This document shows, piece by piece, positions 25,350 through 46,440 of a stretch of DNA of 64,000 nucleotides. Position numbers and translations under genes: made by a program. The DNA is taken from NCBI GenBank assembly GCA_013288485.1, contig JABDBW010000003.1, positions 1 to 64,000 on the forward strand. Reading direction: 5' to 3'. The notes under the pieces are model-generated. The model was not told the DNA's origin. It was given only the letters and a program-made list of their open reading frames with translations, and did not search any database. Position 1 is the first letter of the stretch, and the number at the start of each line of letters is the position of its first letter. Origin of the DNA: Bacteroidota bacterium (lineage in GTDB: Bacteria; Bacteroidota; Bacteroidia; Sphingobacteriales; Sphingobacteriaceae).

Positions 25350-25358
25350 TTGATTTCG

Positions 25359-25376
25359 TCCCGATAGCAATCGGGA
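25359..25376. repeat. REP-like palindrome TCCCGATAGCAATCGGGA
   Basis: Perfect 7-bp arms, 4-nt loop; same CCCGAT/ATCGGG arms recur near 45752, 45779 and 46250. Confidence 0.6.
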
Positions 25377-25418
25377 TCGGATGTTCAATTTCGAAATTAT
25401 ATGATTTACTGGTATATT

Positions 25419-45062: not shown

Positions 45063-45554
45063 TTGGTTTTAATGGATATCCCCCAAAAGCAAAAAATAAC
45101 GGACGAGAAGAGCGCCTTAACTAAAGCCGAACATTATTGTGCCTACCAGGAACGCTCGCAGCAGGAAGTGAGGGATAAACTATTTGAATGGGGTTTGCGG
45201 CCGCAGGTTGCCGAGGGTATTATTTCGCAGTTAATTACAAGTGGCTTTCTGAACGAGGAACGCTTTGCAAAAGCTTATACTGCGGGCAAGTTTAACCAGA
45301 AAGCATGGGGACGCCTAAAAATAAAACAGGGTTTAAAATTAAAAAAGGTGTCTGATGTTTTGATAAAAAAAGCATTGGAAACCCTTAACCCCGATGCCTA
45401 TCTGCAAACCCTGGAAAAGGTGATACAAAAGAAAAGTGCTTTGATCGCCGAAAAAGATCCCTACAAACGCCGGTATAAACTGCAACAATATGCCCGTGGG
45501 CGTGGCTTTGAAACCGACCTGGTAATGGATGTTTTGAAAGACAATGGTTTATAG
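45063..45554 (+). CDS. recX: Regulatory protein RecX
   Basis: AEHYCAYQERSQQEVRDKLFEWGL...LITSGFLNEERFAKAYTAGKFNQKAWGRLKIKQGL. Confidence 0.9.
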   Translation: MVLMDIPQKQKITDEKSALTKAEHYCAYQERSQQEVRDKLFEWGLRPQVAEGIISQLITSGFLNEERFAKAYTAGKFNQKAWGRLKIKQGLKLKKVSDVLIKKALETLNPDAYLQTLEKVIQKKSALIAEKDPYKRRYKLQQYARGRGFETDLVMDVLKDNGL

Positions 45555-45580
45555 TTTTTCAAAAAAATTAAAGGTTTTAC

Positions 45581-45610
45581 TTGTAGAATATGCATTTCTA
45601 TCTATATTTG
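45581..45610 (+). promoter_or_regulatory. Bacteroidetes-type promoter of tRNA-Gly
   Basis: TTG (45581-45583), 19 nt, TATATTTG (45603-45610) matching TTG-N~19-TAnnTTTG. Confidence 0.6.
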
Positions 45611-45620
45611 CACTCCCAAT

Positions 45621-45693
<73 letters not shown>

Positions 45694-45694
45694 C

Positions 45695-45729
45695 AAAATC
45701 CCTTCTGACCAGCAGAGGGGTTTTATTTT
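45695..45729 (+). terminator. Terminator after tRNA-Gly
   Basis: AAAATCCCTTCTGACCAGCAGAGGGGTTTTATTTTT. Confidence 0.6.
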
Positions 45730-45751
45730 TAAAAGGTTAACGCCTGCCCAG

Positions 45752-45767
45752 TCCCGATGCATCGGGA
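45752..45767. repeat. REP-like perfect palindrome TCCCGATGCATCGGGA
   Basis: 16-nt perfect palindrome directly abutting tRNA-Leu fragment A. Confidence 0.65.
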
Positions 45768-45820
45768 TGGTAGACACGCCCCGATTTAAATCGGGGTTCC
45801 CGTCAAAGGAGTGCGGGATT
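45768..45820 (+). pseudogene. Truncated tRNA-Leu-like fragment A
   Basis: TGGTAGACACGCCCCGATTTAAATCGGGGTTCCCGTCAAAGGAGTGCGGGATT: D arm through variable/T arm start; no acceptor stem. Confidence 0.8.
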
Positions 45821-45843
45821 GGTTAGGTTAAAAATTATCACCT

Positions 45844-45928
45844 GCTCGGGTGGTGGAACTGGTAGACACGCAGGACTTAAAATCCTGTGCCCGTCAAAGG
45901 CGTGCGGGTTCGATTCCCGCCCCGAGTA
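45844..45928 (+). tRNA. tRNA-Leu(TAA)
   Basis: GCTCGGG...CCCGAGT acceptor; anticodon arm CAGGA-CTTAAAA-TCCTG; long variable arm TGCCCGTCAAAGGCGTG. Confidence 0.95.
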
Positions 45929-45931
45929 CAA

Positions 45932-45966
45932 CAAAAGCCGCTCATCTGGCGATGGGTGGCTTTTGT
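45932..45966 (+). terminator. Terminator after tRNA-Leu
   Basis: CAAAAGCCGCTCATCTGGCGATGGGTGGCTTTTG. Confidence 0.55.
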
Positions 45967-45982
45967 TATTTTATATTTATTT

Positions 45983-46237
45983 ATGTTTTATACTTACATA
46001 TTACAATCCACGAAAAGTGGCCGTTATTATGTCGGCCACACTTCAAACATTGAAGAAAGATTAGGAAGACATAATACAGGAAAAGTAACTGCCACTAAAA
46101 ATAAAGGCCCTTGGATAGTTATGTGTTATGAAGTATATGAAACAAAAGGCGAAGCTAATTCAAGGGAACTTTATATTAAATCTATGAAAAACCGGGCTTT
46201 CATTGAAAATTTAATTAAGAATTTTAAAAATAACTAA
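45983..46237 (+). CDS. GIY-YIG nuclease (UPF0213-like)
   Basis: MFYTYILQSTKSGRYYVGHTSNIEERLGRHNTGKVTATKNKGPWIVMCYEVYETKGEANSRELYIKSMKNR; ATG at 45983 (the longer listed ORF translates tRNA sequence at its N-terminus). Confidence 0.9.
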   Translation: MFYTYILQSTKSGRYYVGHTSNIEERLGRHNTGKVTATKNKGPWIVMCYEVYETKGEANSRELYIKSMKNRAFIENLIKNFKNN

Positions 46238-46238
46238 C

Positions 46239-46308
46239 TGGTAGACACGCCCCGATTTAAATCGGGGTTCCCGTCAAAGGAATGCGGGTTCGATTCCCGC
46301 CCTGGGTA
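46239..46308 (+). pseudogene. 5'-truncated tRNA-Leu-like fragment B
   Basis: TGGTAGACACGCCCCGATTTAAATCGGGGTTCCCGTCAAAGGAATGCGGGTTCGATTCCCGCCCTGGGTA: lacks 5' acceptor strand and start of D arm. Confidence 0.85.
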
Positions 46309-46350
46309 AAAAGCCTTTCGGATAAATCCGGAGGGCTTTGTTTTTTTTGC
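46309..46350 (+). terminator. Terminator after tRNA-Leu fragment B
   Basis: AAAAGCCTTTCGGATAAATCCGGAGGGCTTTGTTTTTTTT. Confidence 0.65.
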
Positions 46351-46440
46351 AGGGTCAACTGTTCAAAAAACAAAAAACAGCCATATTAATTTTACCATCT
46401 ACCCTATTTTTTATACCTTGAAATTTATAAACCAAATATC

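Follow-up and report, generated by a model that had tools for sequence, protein, structure and literature searches.

Islands and prophages that target tRNA genes are kilobases long, encode an integrase of the tyrosine or serine type, and restore the same tRNA through a short attachment-site overlap. The structure-specific nucleases of the UPF0213, Slx1 and HIGLE types are repair genes or uncharacterised stand-alone genes with no tie to tRNA genes.

Group I introns with endonuclease genes occur in bacterial tRNA genes, and insertion into the anticodon arm of tRNA-Leu(UAA) is the classic case (PMC3984707). In T-even phages, the free-standing GIY-YIG homing endonuclease SegB lies by a tRNA cluster (PMC2988022, PMC13096335). 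In fungal mitochondria, mobile ORFs bring a foreign gene end, as in atp6 of Allomyces and atp6, atp9, cox2 and nad3 of Glomus; they encode a free-standing homing endonuclease, of the GIY-YIG type in atp9, and the native part of the gene is displaced downstream of the ORF (PMC3630166). REP/RAYT systems comprise dispersed intergenic palindromes whose type follows the resident nuclease, and the nuclease gene is itself flanked by palindromes (PMC2817692, PMC8266576).

Here we analyse a tRNA-Leu locus in the window, that is, the whole stretch of 64,000 nucleotides under study, from a 62%-complete MAG (G000) which is Mucilaginibacter-like and has its nearest named matches in Mucilaginibacter. We consider it probable that the locus carries a small mobile element that has a single-domain GIY-YIG nuclease at its core, invades tRNA genes and brings a replacement with it, cleavage and mobility being inferred from sequence comparison.

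Anatomy of the interrupted tRNA-Leu locus

The host tRNA-Gly(gcc) gene (45621..45694; ARAGORN, Rfam tRNA 70.5 bits) lies just upstream of the locus and, like the genes and repeats of the locus itself, is on the plus strand. The order tRNA-Gly then tRNA-Leu is kept in nearly all members of the genus, and tRNA-Gly anchors the empty-site comparison given in the next section. It is followed by the 5' half of a split host tRNA-Leu gene (45746..45817, read from the sequence), which ends before the T loop and consists, in order, of the acceptor 5' strand GCCCAG, a D-arm palindrome, the remainder of the D arm, an anticodon palindrome and the variable arm. The D-arm palindrome TCCCGATGCATCGGGA (45752..45767), a second palindrome of the 5' half, replaces the 5' side of the D arm. 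The anticodon palindrome CCCCGATTTAAATCGGGG (left copy 45779..45796, right copy 46250..46267), located by repeat and pattern search, replaces the anticodon arm; it is 18 nt long and perfect in both halves, where the native gene has CAGGACTTAAAATCCTG.

Next come an intact inner tRNA-Leu(taa) with the foreign acceptor GCTCGGG/CCCGAGT (45844..45929; ARAGORN, Rfam 59.1 bits), its terminator-like hairpin AAAAGCCGCTCATCTGGCGATGGGTGGCTTTT with a T-rich tract (45932..45970), and an ORF of 84 aa for a GIY-YIG nuclease (45983..46237; PF01541, E 1.1e-18). The 3' half of the split gene (46238..46308) then begins in the D arm, includes the anticodon palindrome and ends with the acceptor 3' strand CCTGGGTA. 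A terminator-like hairpin with a T-run (46309..46349) stands in the same place as in empty sites and presumably served the tRNA-Leu gene as terminator before the split. Acceptor stem and variable arm are where the inner tRNA and the halves differ.

The two halves share a direct repeat of 57 nt with 93% identity (repeat family D2; 45768..45824 and 46239..46295), whose exact core of 43 nt lies at 45768-45810 and 46239-46281; an exact repeat of this length framing an ORF is far beyond chance. A preliminary description of the locus had already noted this 43-nt match and the ORF stop 1 nt before the right-hand fragment, and both were found in place, as were the intact tRNA-Leu(TAA), terminator and GIY-YIG ORF that it had put between the fragments (ARAGORN, PF01541). 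It had treated the fragments as simple truncated repeats; they are instead what is left of a single tRNA-Leu gene, its 5' half on the left and its 3' half on the right. The repeat is real, and the tRNA-derived sequence extends wider, from 45746 on the left and to 46308 on the right. The start of the left fragment in the D arm is apparent only and coincides with the end of TCCCGATGCATCGGGA, and the shared block, taken for plain tRNA, has its anticodon stem exchanged for the palindrome, which had gone unseen. The anticodon-palindrome pattern has four matches in the window versus 0.03 expected, and the palindromes may be the most informative part of the locus.

A search of positions 45550-46400 with cmscan (E up to 1) gave no match to a group I intron family, on the basis of which a group I intron between the halves was rejected. 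No integrase gene lies between the halves, where the 84-aa GIY-YIG ORF is the sole notable one. An assembly artefact was likewise rejected, as isolate genomes and single-contig assemblies show this anatomy too. More than a hundred loci, by a good margin, repeat it. An intergenic palindrome copy, TCCCGATAGCAATCGGGA, was also observed at 25358-25377 of the window, 9 nt past an ORF stop.

The split host gene and the foreign inner tRNA

We compared the locus with one genome per species, ranking relatives by protein identity of the neighbouring gene. The genus has kept the tRNA-Gly/tRNA-Leu pair (matched in 95 of 101 genomes), and at most of the loci inspected tRNA-Leu is single and uninterrupted; the empty sites in sister genomes for which the preliminary description had proposed to look are therefore common. 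In G325 (80% identity), the upstream flank is nearly identical to that of the window and the site is empty (L289), with a tRNA-Leu reading GCCCAGG..TTCCCGTCAAAGGAGT..CCTGGGT. The window halves have the acceptor GCCCAG/CCTGGGT and the variable arm TTCCCGTCAAAGG of this gene, and past the palindrome the 3' half agrees with the native G325 tRNA in 40 of 41 bases.

The inner tRNA, GCTCGGG..TGCCCGTCAAAGGCGT..CCCGAGT, differs from the G325-type tRNA-Leu at six positions by count. All 86 of its bases are identical to the same-locus tRNA-Leu of G014, G077, G338 and G339 (68-72% identity), and it is also exact in a tRNA-Leu of G030; the exact matches were found in L268, L272, L275, L276 and L269. Since the halves are of the G325 type and the inner tRNA is of a distant Mucilaginibacter type, the comparison shows, at the level of sequence, that the host tRNA-Leu(UAA) gene is split and that the inner tRNA, which would now do its work, is foreign. 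G030 has two tRNA-Leu(taa) genes (L269 on C6, L004 on C125), which represent both sequence types of the window cassette.

In G008 and Pedobacter montanisoli, as in the window, each half is the pairing partner of the other, and the inner tRNA of neither. G008 also has a feature that speaks against the proposed element: the acceptor stem is foreign, yet the same unusual variable arm is present as in the host halves, so that gene conversion or a near donor is needed.

Intermediate states occur at the same locus. In G061 the ORF is frame-shifted and two left copies bear palindromes; G064 retains an ORF remnant, and G105, G328 and G018 show scars without an ORF. The locus is thus occupied, decayed or empty among Mucilaginibacter species, and this patchy occupation, together with degraded ORFs and scars, is the pattern of gain, decay and loss expected of a putative homing gene. 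It should be added that G105 contains two tRNA-Gly/tRNA-Leu loci 15 kb apart (G105:C4:204688 and 219701), both of which match the interrupted layout of the window; one of them, L057, has a left half and no ORF.

Distribution, nuclease subfamilies and their palindromes

A search with the window protein gave matches in 36 of 60 relatives, and a search with an alignment gave matches in 141 of 197 genomes of the class. The survey set comprised 252 distinct ORFs. ARAGORN placed a tRNA within 200 nt on the same strand for 161 of these ORFs and on the opposite strand for 2. With a tRNA library, 230 ORFs (91%) adjoin tRNA-derived sequence in the sense orientation, 143 of them on both sides, versus 2 and 2 in the antisense control. 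The subset found by the window protein alone was checked separately because the survey alignment was built from such loci, and there 43 of 48 adjoin tRNA-derived sequence. The tRNA halves were found to go with the GIY-YIG gene rather than independently of it, and neither of the two observations that the preliminary description had named as refuting it was made. Its idea of tRNA replacement gains from the split host gene, the foreign type of the inner tRNA and the class-wide recurrence of the arrangement with the nuclease gene.

More than 20 anticodon types are represented, the commonest being Met, Ala, Val, Asn, Leu and Asp. The 3' half usually abuts or overlaps the ORF stop and runs to the tRNA 3' end in 124 of 164 cases, and the 5' half is absent at about half of the loci (70/128). 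The first base of the 3' halves varies between tRNA position 1 and about position 60, which does not fit the D-arm cut suggested earlier. At the anticodon position of the halves, the hairpin is rewritten in 74 cases and native in 3, and this constancy indicates the anticodon arm as the insertion point. With few exceptions the rewritten stem reads TCCCGA/TCGGGA or differs little from it, regardless of the tRNA, and its loop retains the anticodon triplet 27 times versus 12 expected.

In the named set, Bacteroidota account for 80 matches and Ignavibacteriota for 4; the others come from single genomes in other phyla, possibly through MAG contamination. No tblastn match was obtained in phages or plasmids, and 2.9 million viral contigs gave three matches; a phage or plasmid vehicle was rejected on these grounds. 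Occurring by more than 20 kinds of tRNA gene across Bacteroidota, these candidate mobile elements are apparently undescribed: our search covered the open literature, as distinct from subscription journals and preprints, and found no published description of such an element.

Several loci depart from the usual layout. At L134 (G201:C9:905000-911600), ten near-identical tandem units, each a GIY-YIG ORF with a 3' tRNA-Met fragment, follow one intact tRNA-Met with a period of 457 nt. At L028 (G044:C84), the ORF lies directly downstream of the tmRNA gene, and the targets may therefore extend past tRNA genes. The order is reversed at L014 (G043:C4), L044 (G030:C94), L011 and L034, where a palindromic 5' tRNA fragment precedes the ORF and the intact tRNA follows. 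In the tRNA-Asn cassettes L022, L025 and L021, the ORF runs into the tRNA fragment, giving tRNA-encoded C-termini such as LAQLVRVPHVRD. At L013 and L026, ARAGORN, misled by the shift of the anticodon in the rewritten arm, reads the 3' tRNA-Val copy as 'tRNA-Stop(tta)', and such copies are likely mis-annotated as suppressor tRNA in public genomes.

The 84-aa protein consists of one GIY-YIG domain (PF01541, 67.7 bits versus a cutoff of 22.6). Residues Y5, Y16, G18, R26, H30, E62 and K66 are invariant or nearly so (alignments A1 and A3), and the conserved Tyr, Tyr, Arg and Glu of the superfamily active site are among them. The AlphaFold model has a pLDDT of 94.6, and Foldseek ranks UPF0213 BH0048 (1zg2) first, followed by HIGLE and Slx1 and then I-TevI. 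Between homologues pN is 0.13-0.29, far below pS, with saturated synonymous sites (dN/dS 0.05-0.12 where dS is finite), indicating that the protein is maintained under purifying selection.

On a tree of 149 proteins (86 columns), anticodon labels change 61 times versus 110.3 in shuffled data (0/200 as low), a clustering to which vertical inheritance at fixed loci also adds. Well-supported Met, Val, Asn, Ala and Ser groups each span many genera, and copies within one genome (e.g., Leu, Val and Met in G021) sit in separate isotype clades. The predicted nuclease subfamilies are thereby shown to go with particular tRNA isotypes, which is what target-specific homing enzymes would show. The palindrome class also follows the tree, with 10 changes versus 23.5 shuffled (0/500). 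Cassettes of the large Met clade have TCCGNN..NNCGGA, whereas TCCCGA is found in Met cassettes whose nucleases belong elsewhere on the tree, showing that the stem follows the predicted nuclease subfamily and not the tRNA.

Proposed mechanism, alternatives and known systems

We propose that the element entered the sole tRNA-Leu(UAA) gene of the host in its anticodon arm, an event that would have left it flanked by two gene halves whose anticodon stems are rewritten as palindromes. The nuclease would cut tRNA genes of the isotype that it prefers, the anticodon arm being the probable site, and repair from the element-bearing allele, with the tRNA halves as homology arms, would copy the element across (homing). 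The complete tRNA-Leu and terminator that come with the cassette would let the cell keep an essential tRNA and survive, after which it could no longer lose the cassette. As for the rewritten anticodon hairpins, they would either protect the halves from the enzyme or be its cognate hairpin. We infer, with less certainty, that the nuclease has in the palindrome its cognate hairpin or site, or else a cleavage-resistant version of it, and that the same activity spreads solo palindromes.

Two features expected of a homing gene were found, namely empty sites at the same locus and related nucleases at the same target across genomes. It should be noted that the inner tRNA keeps its native anticodon arm, whereas both halves have theirs rewritten; one would expect it to be attacked as well, unless recognition depends on a wider context. 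The number of left copies at a locus does not correlate with that of right copies (rho −0.06 over 111 loci), so the arrays are not simple serial insertions; serial nested self-insertion, which predicts equal numbers, was rejected as their general source. The counts at L162 (3 and 4) and L036 (2 and 3) do look like serial nested insertion.

A second reading, which we regard as possible and hold tentatively, makes the palindrome (TCCCGA..TCGGGA or TCCGTT..AACGGA) the primary mobile unit, jumping into hairpin loops. The GIY-YIG protein might then have the RAYT/TnpA-REP role, with one cognate palindrome per clade and the tRNA cassettes as the autonomous form. On the same tentative footing, the loops invaded genome-wide could be those of anticodon arms, terminators and RNase P RNA, with cassettes persisting by hostage-taking because an essential tRNA gene is replaced by one that the element carries.

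The agreement of palindrome stem with nuclease clade rather than with tRNA speaks for such a role, and so do the dispersed palindromes. In the window genome CCCGATNNNNATCGGG has 25 copies, the intergenic copy mentioned above being one of them, versus 0 in the reversed control. Among 37 genomes of the genus, the median number of palindromes of the two types is 10 where a nuclease was detected and 1 where none was (p = 2.5e-4, kinship uncorrected), and all six genomes with at least six TCCGTT palindromes carry a tRNA-Met cassette of that palindrome type, these six having been inspected after their counts were known. Dispersed copies favour hairpin contexts (mean run 3.65 versus 2.71, 0/500 shuffles), and one, TCCGTTAGCTAACGGA (L307 699-714; G021:C1:464698), lies inside a class A RNase P RNA gene that still scores 240.8 bits. 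No match to the Y1 (HUH) transposase family PF01797 was found in the window genome, for which a RAYT was accordingly rejected as the source of palindromes; this MAG is, however, only 62% complete. The system is thus probably not a RAYT one, though it may work like one.

Other observations fit the palindrome-centred reading less well. The TCCCG..CGGGA family is not enriched everywhere (16 versus 18 in the control for G028, 19 versus 13 for G050), G022 has 20 palindromes and no detected nuclease, and G004, one of the six TCCGTT-rich genomes, has a tRNA-Met cassette with palindromes and no nuclease detected at the loci read. The correlations also come from a single genus. GIY-YIG enzymes are hydrolases, and we know of no integration chemistry for them.

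Local duplication and decay, in which the tRNA was duplicated in place, the GIY-YIG gene came between by chance and the redundant copy decayed, seems unlikely to us. The inner tRNA and the fragments share the 3' acceptor strand at 58 of 65 testable loci, as duplication would have it, and for most isotypes the inner tRNA is too like the halves for a foreign origin to be told from a local one; tandem arrays such as the ten copies in G201 show that local amplification occurs, and the uncorrelated left and right copy numbers also agree with it. For the window locus duplication is already disfavoured, since the inner tRNA matches distant species and the halves pair together, here as in G008 and P. 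montanisoli, and not with the inner tRNA. Nor would it account for the tie of one protein family to many isotypes with isotype-specific clades, and decay would not rewrite anticodon stems to the same TCCCGA/TCGGGA.

It is very improbable that the ORF is a host repair gene of the UPF0213/Slx1 kind that uses tRNA genes as expression sites, with the fragments as by-products of recombination. UPF0213 and Slx1 are indeed the nearest solved structures, the ORF is under purifying selection and it reads in the tRNA direction (161:2), but its patchy presence in the genus, frequent decay and empty sites are unlike a fixed host gene, and single genomes hold several copies in separate clades tied to separate tRNAs. 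A role in defence, with the cassette giving spare tRNAs or decoy halves against anticodon nucleases of phages or rivals, is scarcely credible: anticodon arms are the altered part and SegB adjoins T6 tRNA genes involved in evading Septu (PMC13096335), but the halves are separated genes, each lacking one acceptor strand and unable to take the tRNA fold, their neighbourhood showed no sign of defence, and decoys need no nuclease gene.

Should the proposed homing element be confirmed, Bacteroidota would harbour widespread minimal selfish elements of about 0.5 kb with one protein of 80-90 aa, which rewrite essential tRNA genes and move tRNA genes horizontally; the nuclease would be a candidate enzyme for the dispersed palindromes of these genomes. 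The elements would have remained unnamed because the ORF is annotated as 'GIY-YIG nuclease' while the halves escape notice or are mis-called, as in the ARAGORN 'tRNA-Stop' calls. Genera with cultured members include Mucilaginibacter, Pedobacter and Flavobacterium.

Compared with known systems, the locus resembles tRNA-targeting integrative elements in its target and in the partial tRNA duplicate at one end, and differs from them in an insert of less than 0.5 kb, without integrase, that brings a complete tRNA gene. With group I introns it shares a probable anticodon-arm insertion in tRNA-Leu(UAA) and a homing-type endonuclease gene; unlike them, it has no intron match, and the split tRNA is not spliced but replaced by a second one. 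The closest folds and sequences to the 84-aa protein are those of the UPF0213, Slx1 and HIGLE nucleases.

As in T-even phages, a small GIY-YIG gene lies by tRNA genes; the phage-borne homing endonucleases, which spread by breaks and repair, are larger, have DNA-binding regions, and are accompanied by no split tRNA, replacement tRNA or palindromes. As in REP/RAYT systems, dispersed palindromes match those flanking the nuclease gene (CCCGATNNNNATCGGG, and the TCCGTT type in its carriers), whereas the REP/RAYT enzyme is a Y1/HUH tyrosine transposase and here a GIY-YIG protein accompanies cassettes in tRNA genes.

If confirmed, the element would be a bacterial counterpart of the gene-replacing mobile ORFs of fungi, to which we point as a likeness of working, with no claim of homology. 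The window locus has, like them, a foreign replacement and a displaced native part after the ORF. The fungal ORFs act on mitochondrial protein genes and a hybrid gene results, whereas here bacterial tRNA genes are concerned, usually a whole tRNA is supplied, and palindromes mark the displaced halves.
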